Below, in pieces: positions 38,827 to 53,390 of a stretch of DNA of 64,000 bases. Position 1 is the stretch's first letter. Each line of letters starts with the position of its first letter. Location: contig NZ_JAEMVA010000003.1 of NCBI RefSeq assembly GCF_029215955.1, positions 1 to 64,000 of the forward strand. Reading direction: 5' to 3'. This DNA is from Sulfurimonas sp. SAG-AH-194-I05 (GTDB lineage Bacteria; Campylobacterota; Campylobacteria; Campylobacterales; Sulfurimonadaceae). The notes below the pieces were generated by a model. That model saw only the letters and a list, made by a program, of their open reading frames with translations, did no database searches and was not told the DNA's origin. The position numbers and the translations under genes were made by a program.

Positions 38827-41250
38827 ATGAAAGTTGAACTATCTCGAAGAAAATTTCTTCAAGGCTCGGTTGCGTTAAGTATTTTTGGTGCGAGTGCTGT
38901 CTCCACAGTTCCAACTCTTTTAGCAAAAGAAAAAAAACAACATTTAAGTAAGCAGACTATTGCAACTCTATGCGAGATGTGCGTAAACCGTTGTGCTGCT
39001 TTTGCTACAGTTGATAATGGAATAGTTAAAAAACTTGATCCAAATCCTTTGTTTCCAAAGTCGAAAAATATGCTTTGTGCTCGTGGTGACGCAGGAATTC
39101 ATGCTCTGTATGATCCAGATAGATTAAAATATCCTATGATTCGCATAGGTGAAAAAGGCTCAGGTGAATTTAAACGTGTTACATGGGACGAAGCGTATGA
39201 GGCAATTTTAAACGGTACAGACAAGTTTAAAGGTTTTAAGCAAATTTTACACGAAGAAAAAAACAACCGTTCGACTATTGCTTACTGTGCTGGTGAGGGG
39301 ATGGGTGAACATACTTATAAAGATTTTATGGGTGGTTTATTTGGGTCTACAAACTTTGTAAACCATGCTTCTATTTGTTTACAAACAACTATCTCTGGGT
39401 ACGCCCTCACTATAGGTGGCTACGGAAAAGCCGACTTAGAAAACGCTCGCTATGTAATTATGGCTGGTGCAAACCGTGCAGAAGCCATTTTAACTCCTGA
39501 CACTATGGATATGTTTAAAAGAACAAGAGGACGTGGGCTCAAGCTTATAGTACTGGACCCTCGCTTCACAAATACAGCGCAACATGCAGACAAATGGTTA
39601 GGTATAAAAGTAGGAACAGACTTAGCCTTTGTTTTAGCTCTTACACATGTTGTAATTCACGAAGTCTTATATAATAAAGAATTTGCAGCTAAAAATATAA
39701 ATGGTTTTGAAAAATATAAAGAACATATTTTAAGTCATAACTATACCCCTGCGTGGGCTTCAAAAATCACAGGTATTGATGCAAATGACATTTTTACAAT
39801 AGCACGAGACTTTATGGCGAATGCTCCTCGTGCTATTTATTACCAAGGAAGACGTACTGCTTGGAGTAAGCAAGACTTCCAGCTTCGACGTGCACAGGCA
39901 ATTTTTACTGCTCTTGGTGGTGGTATTGATATTAAAGGTGGTATTATCTTTGGCAAAAAATTAGAACTCGATGCGCATATTGTTGAAGTGCCACTTTATT
40001 CAGGAAATAAACCAAGAATAGATAAAAATGAAGCAAGCTATGTAGGACCAAATGGTACATGGATTGGCTTTAGAAATTTAATAGCTGAGAAAAAAACACC
40101 GTATCCTGTTCGGGGAATGTTTGTGTATAAACATAACCCAATGCAAAGCGTTCCAAATATTACAAAAACAAGAAAAATGTTTGAAAACCTTGAACTTGTA
40201 GTAACCATTGACACAATGCCAAGCGACACTGTCATGATGTCAGATGTTATTTTGCCTGAGTGTAATTATTTAGAGAGAGAAGACCCTGTTAAATCGTTTG
40301 CAGGAATTGAACCGGCTATTGTACTTCGTAATAAAGTTATAGAACCTATGTATGAGACACGTGCTGTTTTTGATATTTTAAAAGGTTTAGCAAAAAAAGT
40401 TTCCGAACCTTTGTTTGACATAACACTCGAGTATGACGCTGACTTACGAGCAGAAGTTGCAGAGCGTGGAAGAGAAGATGTTTATGAAGAAGATATGTTT
40501 AATCTTAACCTTGCGTATGAGCACACACAAGAAGAAATAAATAAAGAGCGTGTAGTTGAAACATATGGAGAAGAAGCGTATCATACTTTAAAAGAAAAAG
40601 GTGTTTTTTACCCCCATATGGACACATATTTTAAAAAGATAAATATGAATGAGTACCAGTATTATCCAGAAGATAAAAAGTATTATTCTCGTCCATCAAA
40701 AGAAAAAACAGAAGCACTTGATAGCTGTGTAGATGAAAAAGCAATGGCTTCTTTAAAGAAAAATCTCTCAACTGGTTCAGGAAAAGTGGAATGTTGCTTA
40801 CCTAACCTAGCACTCAAAGGTGTTGACACTATGCCACAATGGCGTGAAGAACTTTACTTTGAAGTACAAAAGGGAAAATTTAAGTTTGTAACAGGTCGTC
40901 ATGCCCAACAAACACAAAATGCTACATCAAACAATATTATGCTACTTGATGTAATGCGAGAAAATTATTTGTGGATAAACAAAGAACAAGCAGAGCTAAA
41001 GGGCATTTCTCATGGAGATTGGGTTGAGGTTAAAAGTTCTATCGGTGCTGTTCGCATTAAGGCGTATCCTACGATTAAAATTATTAAAGATGTAGTATTT
41101 TATGTACATGGTTTTGGCTCAGAGTCAACGGGTCTTACATTTGGTTATAGAAATGGTGCAAGTGATAACATGATAATAGAAGATCATGTAGAAACAGTTT
41201 TTGGAAGTGCCGCAATGCATGAAACTGTTGTAGAAGTAACAAAGGTTTAA
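38827..41250 (+). CDS. psrA: PsrA/PhsA-type molybdopterin oxidoreductase, catalytic subunit
   Basis: 807 residues. A Tat signal (SRRKFLQGS, residues 5-13) sends the folded enzyme to the periplasm. The FeS motif CEMCVNRC with a later Cys (MLCARGD) binds a [4Fe-4S] cluster; molybdopterin guanine dinucleotide domains follow (GEGMGEHTYKDFMGG, GANRAEAIL). A Cys in NHASICL could ligate the metal, as in polysulfide and thiosulfate reductases. The C-terminal domain (WVEVKSSIGAVRIKAYP) is complete. It heads an operon with psrB and psrC. The substrate (polysulfide, thiosulfate or another) cannot be fixed from sequence. Confidence 0.88.
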   Translation: MKVELSRRKFLQGSVALSIFGASAVSTVPTLLAKEKKQHLSKQTIATLCEMCVNRCAAFATVDNGIVKKLDPNPLFPKSKNMLCARGDAGIHALYDPDRLKYPMIRIGEKGSGEFKRVTWDEAYEAILNGTDKFKGFKQILHEEKNNRSTIAYCAGEGMGEHTYKDFMGGLFGSTNFVNHASICLQTTISGYALTIGGYGKADLENARYVIMAGANRAEAILTPDTMDMFKRTRGRGLKLIVLDPRFTNTAQHADKWLGIKVGTDLAFVLALTHVVIHEVLYNKEFAAKNINGFEKYKEHILSHNYTPAWASKITGIDANDIFTIARDFMANAPRAIYYQGRRTAWSKQDFQLRRAQAIFTALGGGIDIKGGIIFGKKLELDAHIVEVPLYSGNKPRIDKNEASYVGPNGTWIGFRNLIAEKKTPYPVRGMFVYKHNPMQSVPNITKTRKMFENLELVVTIDTMPSDTVMMSDVILPECNYLEREDPVKSFAGIEPAIVLRNKVIEPMYETRAVFDILKGLAKKVSEPLFDITLEYDADLRAEVAERGREDVYEEDMFNLNLAYEHTQEEINKERVVETYGEEAYHTLKEKGVFYPHMDTYFKKINMNEYQYYPEDKKYYSRPSKEKTEALDSCVDEKAMASLKKNLSTGSGKVECCLPNLALKGVDTMPQWREELYFEVQKGKFKFVTGRHAQQTQNATSNNIMLLDVMRENYLWINKEQAELKGISHGDWVEVKSSIGAVRIKAYPTIKIIKDVVFYVHGFGSESTGLTFGYRNGASDNMIIEDHVETVFGSAAMHETVVEVTKV

Positions 41251-41252
41251 AT

Positions 41253-41933
41253 ATGAATTTTGCAATGTCATTAGATTATCAAAGCTGCATAGACTGTAAG
41301 GCCTGTGAAGTTGCCTGTAAAGAAGAAAATGGGGTGCAACTCGGAGCGGACAAACAACGAATATGGGTTTCTCAAGTAGAAACAAGTATATTTGGACAGC
41401 CCTTTATTAGTCTGCACCCATCACAATGTAACCATTGTCTTGACGCACCATGCGTAGATGTTTGTCCAACGGGAGCGAGTTACTTTGCCCTAGGTGGACT
41501 TGTTATGACCGATAAAGATACATGTATACTATGTAAGGGATGCATGGAAGCATGTCCTTATGATGCTCGTTTTGTCGATGATACGCATGTTGCAGTAGAT
41601 AAATGTAGCTTTTGCTATGAAACACGACTTGTTCATGGTGAAATGACTACTGCATGCCAAGCAACGTGTCCCACTAAAGTACGTTTACTAGGAGACATAG
41701 ATGATGAAGAATCTGATTTAGTACAACTTCTAAAAAAGAGGAAATTTTATGTATTAAAAGAAGAAGAAAAAACTGTACCTAAACTTTTTTACCTTCTTCC
41801 TGAACATGATGATTATTTTGCTATGAATTCTGTAAGTCCTGATACAAATATATATACATGGGATGAATATAAACCTATTATCGAAGCTGCAAAAGCTAAA
41901 AGGAAACCACAGTGGAAAACCGTAATACTTTAG
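41253..41933 (+). CDS. psrB: PsrB-type iron-sulfur electron-transfer subunit
   Basis: 226 residues with four cysteine groups for four [4Fe-4S] clusters: CIDCKACEVACKE, CNHCLDAPCVDVCP, CILCKGCMEACP, and a final CSFC with CQATCPT. There is no signal peptide; in this family it is exported with the Tat-bearing catalytic subunit. It carries electrons between PsrA and the membrane subunit. It starts two bases after psrA with an AAAGG site. Confidence 0.93.
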   Translation: MNFAMSLDYQSCIDCKACEVACKEENGVQLGADKQRIWVSQVETSIFGQPFISLHPSQCNHCLDAPCVDVCPTGASYFALGGLVMTDKDTCILCKGCMEACPYDARFVDDTHVAVDKCSFCYETRLVHGEMTTACQATCPTKVRLLGDIDDEESDLVQLLKKRKFYVLKEEEKTVPKLFYLLPEHDDYFAMNSVSPDTNIYTWDEYKPIIEAAKAKRKPQWKTVIL

Positions 41934-43162
41934 AGGTAAACAAACTAACATACAAAGAATTCTTTTTAGATAAAGTAATGCTTATTTCTTATGTTTTTTT
42001 AGCCTTATTTTTTTTCGGTGTTGTTGAAATGGTGTATGAGCGTTACTTTCTTCTTTCTGCAACTGCAGCAGATGCAGGGCTTTTTCCAGGAAGTCGAGCA
42101 GTAGCAGAGGCGATGAAAGAAGCGGTATTTGGTAATGGAGGAGAGGTTAAACGAGAAGCTCCTTGGTCACTGTATATTGTAAATTATATATATATGGTTT
42201 ATGTTGGTTCTGGAATTATATTTATTGTAGCTATTGGTGAACTTTTAGAAAATAAAGAGATTAAAAATATGGCAGCCGCATTTCTTAGCTTAGGTCTAGC
42301 GATGGTTATTGCGGGTTTAGTAACTATTTTAGTTGACTTAAATGTTCTAAACCTGCTCTCGATGCTCCTCTCCCCTCAGTTTAGTTCTGGCATGTGGCTA
42401 ATGCTACCTTTATATACAGTATATGTACCTCTCGTTATACTAGAGATTTATCTTGTTCTTAGCCATAAAGATGCTTGGATTAAAAAAATCGCTTACGCAA
42501 TTATAATTCTGAGTTTACTTGTAGAAGTAATAGAATTTTATGTACAAGCAAAATTATTTGACATGAATTCGGCACGACATTTATGGACAACCTACCCTTT
42601 ACTACCACTTTATTTTGTTGTTTCATCTTTCACTTCGTCTTTAGCTATTATGAGCCTTTATGTTTACCTCAATAAAGGAAATTTTATGTTGCGGTATATC
42701 ATTGAAAGAGCTACCTTATACTTTGTTCTAGCTTTAGGAATTTATGAAGCTGTTTCTTATCTTTTTATTGATAAGAAATGGGCTGAAATTATTCTTTTTG
42801 GTGATTTTAAGTACTGGTTTTATCTCTATGTATTTTTAGCAGTTTTACTACCTCTTGCATTACTCTTTAAACATTATATGAATATTTATTTTAAAATAAC
42901 AGCTGCATTTTCTATTATATTAGGAACATTTTTAGGAAAAATTGTTTTTGTGTATGGTGGAAATGCTTACCCAATGAGTGATAGATTTGGTGTAGGATTT
43001 GAGAAATACTTTGAATATGATGAGGTGAAAAATGTTATATTTTTCATGCCCCCTTTTAGTGAAGTAGCGATAGTTATAGGTTCTGTAGGTATCGTTTTAA
43101 TCATTTTTAGAGCTGTGGACTTACTTTTACTACCTAAAAAGCTTGTAGAAAAAGGAGTGTAA
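41912..43162 (+). CDS. psrC: PsrC/NrfD-type membrane quinone-reactive subunit
   Basis: 416 residues, eight to ten hydrophobic segments, NrfD/PsrC-like. It should anchor PsrAB to the periplasmic face of the inner membrane and exchange electrons with menaquinone. The start is GTG with AAGGAAACCACA upstream and lies 22 bases inside psrB. The N-terminal region has an unusually long loop between the first two helices (about residues 45-85). Sequence is fairly divergent, so the family call rests on context as well. Confidence 0.88.
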   Translation: MENRNTLEVNKLTYKEFFLDKVMLISYVFLALFFFGVVEMVYERYFLLSATAADAGLFPGSRAVAEAMKEAVFGNGGEVKREAPWSLYIVNYIYMVYVGSGIIFIVAIGELLENKEIKNMAAAFLSLGLAMVIAGLVTILVDLNVLNLLSMLLSPQFSSGMWLMLPLYTVYVPLVILEIYLVLSHKDAWIKKIAYAIIILSLLVEVIEFYVQAKLFDMNSARHLWTTYPLLPLYFVVSSFTSSLAIMSLYVYLNKGNFMLRYIIERATLYFVLALGIYEAVSYLFIDKKWAEIILFGDFKYWFYLYVFLAVLLPLALLFKHYMNIYFKITAAFSIILGTFLGKIVFVYGGNAYPMSDRFGVGFEKYFEYDEVKNVIFFMPPFSEVAIVIGSVGIVLIIFRAVDLLLLPKKLVEKGV

Positions 43163-44560: not shown

Positions 44561-46939
44561 ATGAAAAGTAAATTACTACTATCAGTTGCTGCTAGTATTG
44601 CTTTTATGGTTGTGAGTGCAACGTCTGCGCTTGCTTATGACAAAAATCCTCCATTTAAACTTACCAAACTTCAAAAGTTTGTAAAAGTTGTAGATGGACA
44701 AAGAGTAGTTGGTTATGAACCAAAAAATGCTTACAATGTTTTTGTAAACTACGAACTCGGTATGCACTGTGTTGGTTTTGAAATGAGTTACTGTTGTGTA
44801 ATTCCACCATATAACTCAATTCAAGCCCAAGCTATACAAAGTGGTCAAAATGGAAAAACGCCAAAACTTTTATCACCTGCTGATGATGTGAAACTTTATT
44901 ATTATACTAAAGACAACGCATACAGTGAAGGTAACAAAATGAAGTACTGGTCTGTACCAAAAGATGCAGATGGAGATGGTCACTTTGATTCTCCGGGCGA
45001 CAATGTTGCAAACTACGTTTGGACACACCTTTTTATCTATAAAGATTTAGAAGGTACAATCCCTAGTGGCGCAACAGATAAAGACCGTCTTCGTATAGGT
45101 CGTCAAATTCCTGTAAATATTGATTGTGGTCCTTCTGGAAAACCAATGTCTGGTGGTTACTTAGACTATGCTGGTAAACATGGTGGAAGTATTGTTATGA
45201 CTGACACTCTTGTTCCTGCTGTTAAAAATGTTAAGCTAGTACTTACTGCTTCTCATATTTGGGATGCATTAGGTCTTCCATTAACTGCATTTAATGATTC
45301 TACAAGAAAAGGTTCTATCCGTTCAGTTACTGAAAAAGATTTCCAACCTTTCCAATACTCTACTGTAGAATTACATGATAGAAGCGGTAAAGCGAAAAAA
45401 AATAAAACAGGTCATGCAGTATCTTACTTTGGTACAAATCCTGTAGATATTCCTAACTGTTATGCTTGTCACTCTAGAAATGGTAAAGCTGCACAAATGG
45501 CTAGAGATGAAGGTATCACAGCAAGTGATAGAGAATACAAATACTGGAAAACATATCCAGATGAAAGTGAATATATGGCAAGACTTGCTGAATCTTCAAT
45601 CAACATTCTTTCATTACATGATTCACATCATGGTACTACATTTATGCAAGATTACAGAGATAATGCATCTGGAAATAGACTTGGTAAAACTGGTTTAGTT
45701 AACTGTGCTGACTGTCATGGTGACAATGTTTCTGGAAACTTACAAGAGCCTCGTCCTACTGCATCTGGTTATAAAGCTGTAAAAGCTAAACCACTTTCTG
45801 AAGCGATTCATAGTTTTCACCTTGCAATGGTTCCAATGCCAGATGCTGCTGGTCGTTCTCAAGCGTGTCAATCATGTCACCCTACACACTTCCAAAATCC
45901 TAATATGAATGATGATTCTAATCCATTTAGAGTTACAGACAGATACGGTGAAGGTAGATTTGCTAAATCAGATATCAGAACTTCTGGTGGTGGTTGTTAT
46001 GTACGTCGTGACGCGCACTCAAATCCTGATGCTAAACCACCTTTCTTCTTAAATGCATATGGTTCTTGGCAGCTAGAAAATGTAGCTACTAAAGATGAGC
46101 ATGGTAAAGATGCTGGTGAACTTAGAGGACTATATTGTACAAACTGTCACACTAAAGTTGCGCAAGGTATGCAAAACTACGATAATATCTTACATGATAG
46201 TACTCAAGAAGGTAAAACTTTAAGAAACAAAACTATGAAAGAAATTATTGCTGAACTAGCTGGCGGAGATGCAAAGAAATTTGCTGCAATTGCTGACCCT
46301 AAATCAACTGGTGATAACGAAGTATTAAGTTACTATTCTGATCATAAATCTGCTGTTCTTGTTAAGAACGTTGGTAAAGATGGCAAATTAGATCTTAAAC
46401 CATGGAACCACCCAACTGGTGGAGAAGTTCCATATATCGCAGCATCTGGTGGTAATGACTGGTGGTTATCTGCTGCTGAGCCTCATTGTGCGGATTGTCA
46501 CTTAGCTCCATTTGTTGAGAGTGAAACTGGTGGTAAATACTTCCCAATTGATTTACCTAACAAGTACTCTTTATATAGATACTCAAAAGCGCATGGAAAC
46601 ATAGCGTGTCAATCATGTCATGAATCAACTCACGGGTTATATTCAAGTAGATATGATGGTAAAGAACATTCTGTTGACTCAACTACACACGAACAAGCTC
46701 TTCAGTATTCTCCAGATGGTGAATATGCTGGTCCTGTTACTTGTGCTGCATGTCATACAGTAAATAAAAAAGGTGTTCCTTTACAACTTAAAGATACACA
46801 ATATGCAAACGATTATTGGGCATCGGTAACTTTAGCTCACTTTATGAGAGATGGTGATCAAAAACTATCTGTTAAAGAGTTAACTGAAAAATATCCGTAC
46901 CACAAATCTGCAAATATTGTAGAAAAAGGTTGGAAGTAA
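44561..46939 (+). CDS. Secreted heptaheme cytochrome c with a cysteine-containing N-terminal domain
   Basis: 792 residues with a Sec signal (1-25). Seven CxxCH haem sites begin at residues 300, 382, 436, 526, 643, 683 and 728. Residues 26-290 are haem-free and carry NYELGMHC (63-70), a Cys pair at 78-79, Cys189 and a calcium-loop-like DADGDGHFD (135-143). A second DGDQKLSVKEL loop lies near the C-terminus (764-774). Cys479 (CYVRRDAH) is outside a CxxCH. It is probably a periplasmic or surface electron carrier or reductase. No CxxCK or C-x15-CH motif is present, so it is neither NrfA nor MccA. Function unknown. Confidence 0.88.
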   Translation: MKSKLLLSVAASIAFMVVSATSALAYDKNPPFKLTKLQKFVKVVDGQRVVGYEPKNAYNVFVNYELGMHCVGFEMSYCCVIPPYNSIQAQAIQSGQNGKTPKLLSPADDVKLYYYTKDNAYSEGNKMKYWSVPKDADGDGHFDSPGDNVANYVWTHLFIYKDLEGTIPSGATDKDRLRIGRQIPVNIDCGPSGKPMSGGYLDYAGKHGGSIVMTDTLVPAVKNVKLVLTASHIWDALGLPLTAFNDSTRKGSIRSVTEKDFQPFQYSTVELHDRSGKAKKNKTGHAVSYFGTNPVDIPNCYACHSRNGKAAQMARDEGITASDREYKYWKTYPDESEYMARLAESSINILSLHDSHHGTTFMQDYRDNASGNRLGKTGLVNCADCHGDNVSGNLQEPRPTASGYKAVKAKPLSEAIHSFHLAMVPMPDAAGRSQACQSCHPTHFQNPNMNDDSNPFRVTDRYGEGRFAKSDIRTSGGGCYVRRDAHSNPDAKPPFFLNAYGSWQLENVATKDEHGKDAGELRGLYCTNCHTKVAQGMQNYDNILHDSTQEGKTLRNKTMKEIIAELAGGDAKKFAAIADPKSTGDNEVLSYYSDHKSAVLVKNVGKDGKLDLKPWNHPTGGEVPYIAASGGNDWWLSAAEPHCADCHLAPFVESETGGKYFPIDLPNKYSLYRYSKAHGNIACQSCHESTHGLYSSRYDGKEHSVDSTTHEQALQYSPDGEYAGPVTCAACHTVNKKGVPLQLKDTQYANDYWASVTLAHFMRDGDQKLSVKELTEKYPYHKSANIVEKGWK

Positions 46940-46950
46940 CATTCCTTAAT

Positions 46951-46979
46951 TTTTTCCCTCTTGAGGGAAAAAATTTCTA
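46951..46979 (+). terminator. Terminator after the heptaheme cytochrome gene
   Basis: TTTTTCCCTC and its exact complement GAGGGAAAAA (46963-46972) form a long stem with a minimal loop, eleven bases after the stop codon, followed by ATTTCTATTTTTTATT. It may leave only partial read-through into the downstream gene, which has its own TATAAT at 47020-47025. Confidence 0.75.
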
Positions 46980-47072: not shown

Positions 47073-47750
47073 ATGAATAAATATTTTAAAGGTGCACTTC
47101 TCGTTTCCCTTGCAACTGCTTCGCTTAATGCAGAACTAGTTATTACAAACTTTGATACTGGTGAAGTGAAAAAGGAAACAAATTATATTGATGGTACAAA
47201 TACGGACATTAAAGTAGGAATCAAAAATGGTATAGAAAAAGTATATTATCAAATGGGTCGTATGGCGTATCAAGTGAACTATATCGAGGATAAAAGAGAT
47301 GGAATCTTAGAATGGTTTGATAAAGAAGGTAATAAATTATCTGAAATTTATTATAAGCTTGGAAAAATTACAGGTGAAGAAAAATCTTTTTATCCTAATA
47401 AACAAGTTAAACATACAGTAACGTATGTAAATGACTTAAAAGAAGGCATTCAAAAAGAATATTTTAGTACTGGGACACTTGCACAAGAGGTAAACTATAC
47501 TAAAGGTAAAAAAAATGGCCTCCAAAAAGAGTATACAGATGATGGAAACCTTTATACAAAAGTTAACTATATAAATAACTATAAAGAAGGCTTACAAAAA
47601 TGGTACGACAAACATTCTAAAGTGATAAGAGAGACTCTCTTTAAACAAGATAGACCTGTTGAAATCATGAAACAAGTTCAAAGAACAGACCAGTACAACG
47701 ATGTGCTTTCTGTAACCGGCATTGACTTTTCACCACAAAAACCTGAGTAA
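47073..47750 (+). CDS. Secreted MORN/YwqK-like repeat protein (first paralogue)
   Basis: 225 residues with a signal peptide (1-20). The mature part is about seven repeats of the MORN_2 type, each with a Tyr/Phe-x-x-G-x-hydrophobic core (for example VYYQMGRMAYQVNYIEDKRD and EYFSTGTLAQEVNYTKGKKN). COG2849 names such proteins after the YwqK antitoxin, but a secreted copy without a toxin partner is not likely an antitoxin. A paralogue lies at 49230. It has its own -10 and an AAGGAC site. The role is unknown; a scaffold or binding surface is plausible. Confidence 0.75.
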   Translation: MNKYFKGALLVSLATASLNAELVITNFDTGEVKKETNYIDGTNTDIKVGIKNGIEKVYYQMGRMAYQVNYIEDKRDGILEWFDKEGNKLSEIYYKLGKITGEEKSFYPNKQVKHTVTYVNDLKEGIQKEYFSTGTLAQEVNYTKGKKNGLQKEYTDDGNLYTKVNYINNYKEGLQKWYDKHSKVIRETLFKQDRPVEIMKQVQRTDQYNDVLSVTGIDFSPQKPE

Positions 47751-49229: not shown

Positions 49230-49829
49230 ATGAATTTAATTTTAATAATAGGCACTTTGATTGCCACAAATGCATTTGCTACAGAACTTCCTTGTAGAAA
49301 TCCAGATAAATATATTGCGCAAGACAAGGCACGTACATCTACTTATGTAAATTGCAAGCGAAATGGAATGACATTTTGGTATAGCGAATCTGGACATATC
49401 AAATCTCAAGTAAACTTTATTGATGGTAAAGAAAATGGACTCTATACTTCATTCTACAATAATCAACAAAAAAAAATTGTTGTTCATTATATAGATGGAC
49501 AAAAAGATGGTGTTCAAAATATATACTATAACACAGGACAGCTCGGGAGCAGAGTTACATATAAAATGGGTAAAAGAGAAGGCTTAATGGTCGACTGGGA
49601 TATAGAAGGATTTAAAAGTGCTGAAGTATTCTATAAAAACAACTATAAAGTGGGTTTAAAAAAATATTTTGATCATTCACACAATGTAATTATGACGGAA
49701 ACCTATAAAATGGATCGAAATCCTTTAATGATTAAACTCTTAAAAGATAAAAGAAAAGAAATTTTAGTGGACTTATCTAAGTATGGTTTAGTACCAGAAA
49801 ATGCTACTTATAAGGAAAAGATGAAATAA
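49230..49829 (+). CDS. Secreted MORN/YwqK-like repeat protein (second paralogue)
   Basis: 199 residues with a signal peptide (1-17) and two early cysteines (PCRNP and NCKRNG) that could form a disulfide. About five MORN_2 repeats follow (for example YYNTGQLGSRVTYKMGKREG). The C-terminal end (MTETYKMDRNPLMIKLLKDK) is clearly related to that of the 47073 protein (RETLFKQDRPVEIMKQVQR), so the two arose by duplication. The ATG is one base after the preceding stop codon. Confidence 0.72.
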   Translation: MNLILIIGTLIATNAFATELPCRNPDKYIAQDKARTSTYVNCKRNGMTFWYSESGHIKSQVNFIDGKENGLYTSFYNNQQKKIVVHYIDGQKDGVQNIYYNTGQLGSRVTYKMGKREGLMVDWDIEGFKSAEVFYKNNYKVGLKKYFDHSHNVIMTETYKMDRNPLMIKLLKDKRKEILVDLSKYGLVPENATYKEKMK

Positions 49830-50223: not shown

Positions 50224-50256
50224 TATAATGCCTTCAAATAATTTAATGTATGAAGG
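50224..50256 (+). promoter_or_regulatory. ccsBA promoter and inverted repeat
   Basis: TATAAT (50224-50229) is followed by CCTTCA (50231-50236) and, 14 bases later, TGAAGG (50251-50256), whose GAAGG is the Shine-Dalgarno for the ATG at 50265. The geometry resembles the element before the 49919 gene. Confidence 0.45.
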
Positions 50257-50264
50257 TATTTACC

Positions 50265-53200
50265 ATGAAACAACTTTTATCCCTCTTTGACTCCATGAAA
50301 ACCATGGCTATTTTAATGCTACTCTTTGCTTTTGCCATTGGATATGCTACATTTATCGAAAACGATTACGGTACAATCACATCAAAAGCTGAGATATTTA
50401 ACACAAAATGGTTTGAAGTTTTACTAGGACTCTTAACCTTAAACCTCATGCTAAATATTTATAAGCATAAAATGTTTTCCCTCAATAAAGCCCCTATATT
50501 CATCTTTCATATAGCTTTTATAGTTATTATTATTGGTGCTGCAATCACCCGCTACTATGGATACGAAGGGAGTATGCATATTCGTGAGGGCGACACAGTA
50601 AAAACAATGACAAGTTCTTATACATACTTTACAGTAGATGCAAAATCTGGTACAAAAAATACAATAGATTCTCAGATTCTTTACCTTTCTAAAAAAAGTA
50701 CAAATAACTTATCTGTATCACTCGAAGTTGATTCTAAACAAGTTGATGTTGAACTTATAGACTATATTCCAGACGCTATGGAAAAAATGGTTGTAGATAA
50801 TGCGCACGGAATTTCAGTTGCTGACATGATGGTTACGGGAGGAGGAAAAGGTCGACCGGTTGCACTCAAAGAAGGCACCTACTATGACACAGGAAGTGTA
50901 ATTTTAGACTTTAACACAGGAAAGGATTTTGATACTCCTGTAATTCATATCTATAAAAAAGATGGTGCACTCTTTTTAGATCATAAAATGGTACTTAAAT
51001 ATTTAAAAATGGATGACAGAAGTGATGGAGATCTTCTCGCTAACGTAAGTGAACCCTTCGCTAAAAGAACCTTATTTACAGTGGGTGAAAGTAGTTTTGT
51101 TCTTAAAAATTATTTACCACATGCTTCTATGAAGATTGTTACAAATCCTAAAGCAAAACCTATGAATCCTGGTATTGATGCCCTCAAATTTAAAATTACA
51201 GTCGATGGTGTTTCAAAAGAAACGATGCTTTATGGACAACCTGGGACATTAGCAAAAGAACAACATAATGCTATTAACGGCGTTGATGTTCATATTTCAT
51301 ATGGTGCAAAAGAGTTAGAGCTTCCTTTTGGAATTCATCTTAAAGACTTTGAGCTAGAACGCTACCCAGGATCAATGAGTCCAGCTTCATATGCAAGTGA
51401 AGTAACACTCATAGATGAAGAAGAAGGTTTAACCATGCCATATAGAATTTTTATGAATAATGTTCTAGAACATCGTGGATATAGATTTTTTCAAGCTTCA
51501 TATGATCAGGATGAGTTAGGAACTGTTCTTTCTGTAAATAATGACCCAGGAACACTTCCTTCATATATTGGATATGCACTTTTAGCGCTAGGTATGTTTT
51601 GGTCTCTTTTTTCAAGAAAAAATCGTTTTTCAAAGTTAGCAGCAAAAGCTAAAAAAGCAAATGAGAAAAAAATGTTATCGTTTTTGCTAGCCTTTGGACT
51701 ATTGAGTACATTCACTCCCTCTCATGCAGAGGACTTACATCCAGAAATTAAAACCATTATTTCCTTTGATAAAGACCATGCCAAAAAATTTGGTGAACTC
51801 ATAGTCCAAGATTCTAAAGGACGGATGAAACCTATGGATACACTTACGACTGAAGTACTAGCAAAACTATATGGTTCTGCAAAACTTAAAGTCGGAAAAT
51901 ATTCCTTAACATCAAATCAAGTTGTTTTAGGAATGATGATAAGTCCTGAATCTTACAAATATATTAAAATAATTAAAACAAAAAATAAAGATATAAACAA
52001 ACTTATAGGAGCACCAGAAGATGCAAAATATGTATCATTTTCACAATTTTTTCAAGATCCAACTGGGATAAGAGGCTATAAACTAGGTCAAGTTATTGAA
52101 AATGCTGCGAGAAAAGAAGCTAAGCATAGAGATAAGTTTGACAAAGCACTTTTAAAAATTGACGAAAAAGTGAATGTGTCTTATATGATTTTTACAGGCT
52201 CACTTATAAAAATATGGCCAAAACCAAATGACAATACAAATAAATGGCATCCAACTATTGAAGCATTACAAACCTTTGAAGCTGAAGTTGGAGAACGTGT
52301 CCGTACCACTGCTGTTGAGTATTTCACATCTATAGATGATTCGCTTATAAGTGGAAACTGGGATGCTCCAACAAAGGCTCTTTCAAAAATTGCTACATTT
52401 CAGCATGAATTTGGCTCTGCTGTATATCCAACAGAATCAAGAATTAAAGCAGAAGTTTTTTATAATGAAGTACGTATTTTTGAAAGAATTTATCCAATGT
52501 ACCTTTTAATGGGTTTTATTCTTTTAATACTTAGTTTTGTAAAAATACTCAAACCAAGTTTTAAAATGGACTTAGTTACAAAAGCCTCACTTTGGTTTTT
52601 AATTTTTCTTTTTATTGCACACACAGTTGGCCTTATAAACAGATGGTATATTTCAGGACATGCCCCTTGGTCAAACGGATATGAATCTATGATCTATATT
52701 GGTTGGGCAACTGTTCTTGCTGGATTTATTTTTTCTAAACGTTCGTCAATGACCTTAGCATCAACTGCAATCTTAGCCGGTCTCATTCTTTTTGTTGCAC
52801 ACTTAAGCTGGATGAATCCACAAGTTACAAACCTAGTTCCTGTTCTTAACTCCTACTGGTTGAGTATTCATGTATCTATGATTACTGCAAGTTATGGCTT
52901 CCTTGGTCTTGGTGCCTTACTTGGATTTGTTTCTATTATACTTTTCATTTTGAAAACAACAAAGAATGAAAAACACCTTAGTCTTTCTATTAAAGAGTTG
53001 AATGCCATTAATGAGATGAGTATTATGGCAGGTCTTGTTCTTTTAAGTGTTGGTAATTTCCTTGGTGGAGTGTGGGCAAATGAATCATGGGGTAGATACT
53101 GGGGTTGGGATCCAAAAGAAACATGGGCATTAGTAACAATTCTTATATATGCTGTGATTTTACATCTTAGATTTATTCCATCACTTTACACGCAGTTTAA

Positions 53201-53390
53201 CTTTGCTGTGGTTTCAACACTGGGCTATACTTCAGTTATAATGACGTATTTTGGAGTAAACTATTACCTTGCAGGTCTTCACTCGTATGCAAAAGGTGAT
53301 CCAGTTCCTATTCCTGATTTTGTGCCAATAACGTATGCTATACTCTTTTTAGTTATTGCTTTAGCATTTAGAAATAGAAAACTTTCCTAA
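50265..53390 (+). CDS. ccsBA: Fused System II cytochrome c synthase CcsBA
   Basis: 1041 residues from the ATG at 50265 (GAAGG eight bases upstream); an ATG five codons earlier has no such signal. The N-terminal half is ResB/CcsB-like: three membrane helices, a periplasmic domain (about 90-420), then another helix. The C-terminal half is CcsA-like with the WWD haem-handling motif WGRYWGWDPKETWALV and several conserved His residues. It carries haem across the membrane and attaches it to CxxCH motifs. Its position suggests service to the heptaheme protein, though it may be the general synthase. Length is typical for Campylobacterota. Confidence 0.95.
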   Translation: MKQLLSLFDSMKTMAILMLLFAFAIGYATFIENDYGTITSKAEIFNTKWFEVLLGLLTLNLMLNIYKHKMFSLNKAPIFIFHIAFIVIIIGAAITRYYGYEGSMHIREGDTVKTMTSSYTYFTVDAKSGTKNTIDSQILYLSKKSTNNLSVSLEVDSKQVDVELIDYIPDAMEKMVVDNAHGISVADMMVTGGGKGRPVALKEGTYYDTGSVILDFNTGKDFDTPVIHIYKKDGALFLDHKMVLKYLKMDDRSDGDLLANVSEPFAKRTLFTVGESSFVLKNYLPHASMKIVTNPKAKPMNPGIDALKFKITVDGVSKETMLYGQPGTLAKEQHNAINGVDVHISYGAKELELPFGIHLKDFELERYPGSMSPASYASEVTLIDEEEGLTMPYRIFMNNVLEHRGYRFFQASYDQDELGTVLSVNNDPGTLPSYIGYALLALGMFWSLFSRKNRFSKLAAKAKKANEKKMLSFLLAFGLLSTFTPSHAEDLHPEIKTIISFDKDHAKKFGELIVQDSKGRMKPMDTLTTEVLAKLYGSAKLKVGKYSLTSNQVVLGMMISPESYKYIKIIKTKNKDINKLIGAPEDAKYVSFSQFFQDPTGIRGYKLGQVIENAARKEAKHRDKFDKALLKIDEKVNVSYMIFTGSLIKIWPKPNDNTNKWHPTIEALQTFEAEVGERVRTTAVEYFTSIDDSLISGNWDAPTKALSKIATFQHEFGSAVYPTESRIKAEVFYNEVRIFERIYPMYLLMGFILLILSFVKILKPSFKMDLVTKASLWFLIFLFIAHTVGLINRWYISGHAPWSNGYESMIYIGWATVLAGFIFSKRSSMTLASTAILAGLILFVAHLSWMNPQVTNLVPVLNSYWLSIHVSMITASYGFLGLGALLGFVSIILFILKTTKNEKHLSLSIKELNAINEMSIMAGLVLLSVGNFLGGVWANESWGRYWGWDPKETWALVTILIYAVILHLRFIPSLYTQFNFAVVSTLGYTSVIMTYFGVNYYLAGLHSYAKGDPVPIPDFVPITYAILFLVIALAFRNRKLS

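Follow-up and report, generated by a model that had tools for sequence, protein, structure and literature searches.

A heptahaem cytochrome of Sulfurimonas sp. SAG-AH-194-I05 belongs to an unnamed LGMHC multihaem family and carries a candidate two-cysteine site

Introduction

It is customary to group multihaem cytochromes by the number of their haems, a practice that puts unlike proteins under one name. The subject of this study is a gene of Sulfurimonas sp. SAG-AH-194-I05, located on contig NZ_JAEMVA010000003.1 within the stretch of 64,000 nucleotides that we analysed (hereafter the window). Its product has seven CxxCH motifs, all of them between residues 300 and 732, and these are preceded by a long N-terminal region that binds no haem. 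An initial annotation, made from the sequence of the window, had read this arrangement as a special fusion of a redox-active or metal-binding head onto a haem wire. Here we ask what the N-terminal region is, whether its association with the haems is peculiar to this protein, and what a protein of this composition may do in the periplasm.

The heptahaem gene and its surroundings

The coding sequence (44561–46939, forward strand, as are its parts, the hairpin and the adjacent gene given below; 792 residues) has an ATG start and no internal stops, while the opposite strand, when read in register, has many; both the reading frame and all of the motifs initially listed for it are real. We found one copy of the gene in the source genome (2.05 Mb in 110 contigs, 85% complete). 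Residues 1–25 (44561–44635) form a probable Sec signal peptide, for which we placed the cleavage site by eye near ALA-YDKN, and are followed by a haem-free, β-rich N-domain (residues 26–290; 44636–45430) and by the haem domain (residues 300–732; 45458–46756). The seven CxxCH sites are at residues 300, 382, 436, 526, 643, 683 and 728 (45458, 45704, 45866, 46136, 46487, 46607 and 46742, respectively), and a scan of the protein for CxnCH motifs with n = 1–19 identified those with n = 2 only. Cysteines outside of these sites occur at positions 70, 78, 79, 189 and 479. Just past the stop codon there is an intrinsic-terminator-like hairpin with a 12 bp stem and a T tail (46948–46975), and transcription of the gene probably terminates there; two such sites were identified in the region, against 1.2 expected by chance.

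The adjacent gene (47073–47750) encodes a MORN_2-repeat exported protein, and a MORN-repeat gene adjoins at least 49 of the 63 Campylobacterota-type copies of the heptahaem gene and none of the 13 others, many of these loci ending near the gene. In the window a second MORN_2-repeat exported protein is encoded at 49230–49829, the pair flanking a parvulin-type isomerase gene, and past the second lies a CcsBA-type fused cytochrome c maturation gene (50250–53390).

Upstream, on the same strand, are genes with matches to the PhsA-like, FeS and NrfD families (38827–43162), raising the prospect that the cytochrome is a subunit of the product of this molybdopterin oxidoreductase operon and acts as its periplasmic electron partner. 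However, an amino-acid permease gene intervenes, and within 1.5 kb of the 76 homologous copies of the heptahaem gene we found no counterpart to the window's Mo enzyme, FeS, NrfD-like or permease genes. We rejected an operon shared with the upstream Mo enzyme on the grounds that its genes are missing beside all 76 copies, and consider the subunit role very improbable. A search of the homologous loci for a partner gene conserved across phyla found none, the neighbours being mostly housekeeping genes; the heptahaem gene seems to act alone. In one Hydrogenothermaceae MAG the seven-haem gene is immediately preceded by that of an ExtM-related 12-haem cytochrome (locus L102, 1902–4400), which scores 218 bits where the cut-off is 800.

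Domain searches and predicted structure

A match of the haem-free N-terminal region to a known cytochrome family domain, which by the initial annotation would have made the protein an ordinary member, was looked for and not obtained: residues 26–270 had no match in Pfam, NCBIfam or the PDB sequences. The region is a real domain and, as far as these databases go, an undescribed one. Pfam matches started at residue 271 and were to the cytochrome models PF22113 (MtrC/MtrF domains II/IV), Cytochrome_C7 and Cytochrome_C554. PF22113 scored at its cut-off in the window protein (30.0 bits vs. 30) and above it in several relatives, and other cytochrome models match the same protein too. The sole NCBIfam match was a sub-threshold one to cbb3, and there was none to TIGR03507 at an E-value of 0.1. 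No PDB chain matched the window protein at an E-value of 1, and profile searches gave nothing convincing; likewise, proteins of the hydroxylamine oxidoreductase and octahaem tetrathionate reductase types were represented by no NCBIfam match and no PDB chain at an E-value of 1. In the open-access library that we searched, neither the string "LGMHC", nor Sulfurimonas and Methylacidimicrobium together with multiheme cytochrome, had a match, and judging by titles and the starts of abstracts we did not find this protein there.

Structure prediction was of limited help. The whole-protein model had a pLDDT of 62.6 and a pTM of 0.58, and an AlphaFold2 model of residues 26–310 (pLDDT 70.7, pTM 0.69) was mainly β; the LGMHC loop had a pLDDT below 50, and neither model is confident enough to place Cys70 and Cys479 in contact. 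Foldseek identified no match under an E-value of 0.001 for the whole-protein model or that of the N-domain. VIA gave a best Z of 4.5 for the former, with Ig-like rows over residues 57–297, and of 5.5 for the latter, where all matches were below 8 and antibodies, MtrC domain III and the copper protein P19 were tied. Ig-like fold matches at Z ≤ 5.5 may reflect a common arrangement only. The MccA, hydroxylamine oxidoreductase and octahaem tetrathionate reductase types were absent from the Foldseek and VIA lists, an absence that is uninformative.

In architecture the protein can be compared with the decahaem outer-membrane cytochromes MtrC, MtrF and OmcA, in which a β-domain likewise comes before the haem domain; the PF22113 score stands just at the cut-off. 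The fold match to MtrC domain III is weak (Z 4.5, rmsd 3.6, 107 aligned residues), with dozens of unrelated Ig-like rows scoring equally, and the spacing of Cys70 and Cys79 in the window protein is the same as in the CX8C of MtrC. In contrast to these cytochromes, the window protein has seven haems rather than ten, lacks the TIGR03507 match and has a soluble signal peptide.

Conservation in the seven-haem clade

That the motifs are no chance arrangement is seen in an alignment of 97 full-length proteins, one of them the window protein and fragments of less than 740 residues omitted, in which 216 positions are invariant. The invariant residues include all seven CxxCH sites, the LGMHC motif (residues 66–70, containing His69 and Cys70; 44756–44770) and a second conserved loop, PPYN (residues 82–85; 44804–44815). 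Also present in 97/97 are Cys78 and Cys79 of the YCC motif (residues 77–79; 44789–44797), a feature of the seven-haem clade only, and Cys479 of GGGCYVRRDAH (residues 476–486; 45986–46018), which lies between haems 3 and 4. Because LGMHC and Cys70, Cys78, Cys79 and Cys479 are invariant, the redox-active or metal-binding site that the initial annotation had proposed is plausible on the sequence evidence.

Other residues to which it had drawn attention fared less evenly. The calcium-loop-like DADGDGHFD (residues 135–143; 44963–44989) keeps the pattern D.[DN].[DN]G in 94 of the 97 proteins, and sits in an insertion (residues 130–187) absent from the nine-haem relatives described below, whereas the C-terminal DGDQKLSVKEL is a canonical loop of this pattern in none of the 97, and Cys189 is a cysteine in 12. 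Conservation this poor led us to reject a metal-binding role for Cys189 and for the C-terminal loop.

Ten histidines outside the CxxCH sites are also invariant (97/97), and His69, though it may be a haem ligand, need not be an obligatory one, as there are nine others. These ten suffice for seven bis-His haems, as would be expected if the protein were an electron relay between periplasmic partners, with the N-domain and a Cys70–Cys479 disulfide serving as a structural clamp; the match to PF22113 fits such a relay as well. On the other hand, many of the 216 invariant positions are not connected with haem, which is more conservation than a relay needs, and no partner gene co-travels with the cytochrome. 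We regard the relay as possible, though rather doubtful.

Distribution and transfer between phyla

Campylobacterota, Hydrogenothermaceae, and Methylacidimicrobium and its relatives all have full-length relatives that are 56–85% identical to the window protein, as do one Nitrospiraceae MAG and one Geobacteraceae MAG. The N-domain as query matched 28 of 397 Campylobacterota genomes at an E-value of 0.001; 20 of these matches were of the strong seven-haem type (E < 1e-97) and eight were weak, several being nine-haem relatives. Searches with the full alignment identified the gene in 12 of the 13 genomes of the Methylacidimicrobium family, in 21 of 136 genomes (two with weak, partial matches) of the phylum that includes the Hydrogenothermaceae MAG, and in 3 of 297 genomes of that of the Geobacteraceae MAG. 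Plasmids yielded no match, and viral contigs 19 pattern matches, none of them a relative. Two loci (L072, 9001–13794, and L084, 5714–10739) have a tandem pair of seven-haem genes, and in L137 (G769 contig 10, of the 136-genome phylum) the seven-haem gene is interrupted by stop codons.

Across phyla, the relatives have 58.7–64.4% identity to the window protein, compared with 40–49% for RpoB, while within the phylum the order is reversed (73–83% vs. 80–88% for RpoB). Between one Methylacidimicrobium and one Hydrogenothermaceae genome the heptahaem proteins are 72% identical and the RpoB proteins 43%. Such a pattern marks transfer of the seven-haem clade between phyla. A control aspartokinase, encoded in the window, had 50–57% identity in the same genomes; the contrast is thus clear against RpoB and modest against aspartokinase.

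Nine-haem relatives and common descent

By way of weak matches we reached nine-haem proteins with DLGMHC and PPYN (L022, L024–L026, L028 and L147–L153). An hhalign comparison of the seven-haem and nine-haem profiles gave a probability of 99.9 and an E-value of 7e-37 over window residues 53–442, and 22 columns are invariant across 17 N-domains. With a profile of these 17 rows we searched two other phyla, where 33 of 294 genomes in the one and 17 of 118 in the other have members; we read 49 loci from these phyla, of which 33 encode an LGMHC protein, in every case with 6–9 CxxCH behind the LGMHC domain, and the remaining 16 belong mostly to a branch with LGMKC, LGEKC or TGMHS. In 12 of 12 distinct nine-haem-type proteins, and in every other relative found, the haems follow immediately upon the N-domain. 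These results demonstrate common descent of N-domain and haem domain, and the N-domain is an integral half of the protein rather than an added head; the special fusion of the initial annotation does not hold. The stand-alone LGMHC proteins that it had mentioned did not turn up either, with no haem-free protein among the 33 LGMHC loci of the two phyla, and the haem-free L023 (320 residues) and a haem-free piece in L081 both stop at contig edges.

The window protein shares with the nine-haem lipoproteins a homologous N-domain, with its LGMHC and PPYN loops, the first haems, and counterparts of Cys70 and Cys479, and like the rest of its clade it has a free cysteine between haems 3 and 4. It differs from them in haem number, in that they often have a lipoprotein signal, and in that they have other residues in place of Cys78–Cys79. 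When the 59 stand-alone proteins were placed on a tree, the 22 of the seven-haem type grouped in a single, fully supported clade, and L170 and L171, which are nine-haem proteins, are placed among the nine-haem proteins. Variants of the haem complement were also seen: L152 (6719–8614) has two monohaem sites at its N-terminus and, where the fourth CxxCH would stand, the sequence CTNASCH, probably a haem site of the CX4CH kind, and L224 (7461–12419) encodes three successive LGMHC-family cytochromes with seven CxxCH each.

The neighbours of the nine- and eight-haem relatives include two-component systems and a porin-like gene, and elsewhere RCC1-repeat, multicopper oxidase and β-propeller genes; the LGMHC cytochromes of L216 and L219 have an RCC1-repeat gene on one side and a gene for a multicopper oxidase on the other. 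Genes of the latter three kinds beside nine-haem relatives agree with the relay considered above, and such neighbours hint at surface electron transfer in the nine- and eight-haem branches, a hint that does not extend to the soluble seven-haem proteins. That the window protein is itself a cell-surface metal reductase or a nanowire-type cytochrome, as the "haem wire" of the initial annotation suggests, could be argued from these surface-type genes and from the lipoprotein signals of its nine-haem relatives, but the signal peptide of the seven-haem clade is a plain one, none of the 97 homologues matching a lipobox pattern within the first 40 residues, and a porin partner was not found beside seven-haem genes. 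Moreover, the Methylacidimicrobium family, nearly all of whose genomes carry the gene, is not known for metal reduction. We judge a surface role improbable.

Two non-haem cysteines and a CydA-like fusion branch

Counterparts of Cys70 and Cys479 are present in all 59 stand-alone family members. The second of these reads C-x(1,2)-R after the third haem in 57 (in L180, after the second counted haem), the two exceptions being CYNGR and CFVGR. In the 12 distinct nine-haem proteins the LGMHC cysteine and that of C-x-R after the third haem are the two free cysteines found in 12 of 12, L152 having more.

A divergent branch (L185–L192, L207–L212 and L246–L305) has the order CydA-like membrane domain, monohaem domain, LGM-type domain and seven haems, and PF01654 was found in 10 of the 11 fused proteins scanned. 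Its members resemble the window protein in that an LGM-type N-domain is followed by seven haems, but these stand behind PF01654 and a monohaem domain, and the motif and the cysteines have often been lost. Among the first 16 fused proteins, 12 have both cysteines, two have serine at both sites and two have lost the second cysteine alone; the coupling was first noticed in these 16, which are themselves part of the later, enlarged count. For the latter, 75 of 78 loci were kept (three being duplicates or too short) and 74 had both sites: 28 proteins have both cysteines, 38 neither, seven Cys70 only and one Cys479 only (Fisher p 8e-13, with relatives counted as independent and kinship ignored).

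We also built a tree without the two cysteine columns from 73 of the 75 rows, leaving off L213, a truncated piece of the seven-haem clade in which site 1 is missing, and L275, which is the same gene as L193. On this tree site 1 changed at least eight times and site 2 at least seven, and of 5 independent pairs differing at Cys70, Cys479 follows in 3.0 on average and opposes in 0. With at most five usable pairs the sign test was not significant (median p 0.25); for the difference between following and opposing pairs, 126 control columns of similar variability had a maximum of 2.27 and a median of 0.19, compared with 3.0 for Cys479, and His69 did not track Cys479 on the tree. Based on these counts it is likely, although not proven, that Cys70 and Cys479 are kept or lost together in the fused branch. 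The fused proteins that have neither cysteine retain their haems, so the site is dispensable for electron transfer in that branch, and that both can vanish while the haems remain is a further point in favour of the relay.

A proposed role for the two-cysteine site

Our preferred reading, to which we give about even weight, is that the window protein is a stand-alone, soluble, periplasmic oxidoreductase whose β-domain and haem domain are joined by a two-cysteine site. Cys70 of the N-domain would meet Cys479 of the loop between haems 3 and 4 in space, beside a haem, and the two would form a disulfide or be ligands of one metal; for the seven-haem clade, the addition of Cys78 and Cys79 may give a pocket of four thiols. 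Electrons would run along the haems between a quinol-linked periplasmic carrier and the cysteine pocket, a route via the quinol pool and a small cytochrome being suggested by the fusion, elsewhere in the family, to CydA-like and monohaem c domains. The substrate would be a small molecule, and a sulfur compound is our first guess because the carriers are mostly sulfidic and hydrothermal bacteria.

A precedent in idea only is MccA, the octahaem sulfite reductase, in that it is a multihaem enzyme with two cysteines beside a haem; there, Cu(I) is held by the two cysteines in a heme-Cu(I)-Cys2 site. MccA also carries, according to a passage in PMC7096707, a CX15CH haem site. The window protein differs from it in having no CX15CH site and no sequence match to any PDB chain.

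We further speculate, with a good deal less conviction than for an oxidoreductase as such, that the site made by Cys70 and Cys479 against a haem holds a metal (perhaps copper) or a persulfide, with Cys78–Cys79 as additional ligands, and that the protein represents a new class of stand-alone periplasmic sulfur-compound oxidoreductase. Such an enzyme would have moved among sulfur-oxidising Campylobacterota, Aquificota and verrucomicrobial methanotrophs. The fusions to a CydA-like domain would then represent a quinol-coupled version of it, and some of these fusions would have lost the catalytic site and become pure relays.

The LGMHC multihaem family is large, unnamed and without a Pfam or NCBIfam model, and LGMHC, PPYN and a cysteine after haem 3 together provide a signature for it in samples of at least five phyla. 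Within the family, Cys70 and Cys479 are two residues whose mutation should distinguish an enzyme from a relay. Should the site prove catalytic, an undescribed periplasmic reaction would be common to verrucomicrobial methanotrophs and deep-sea sulfur oxidisers.
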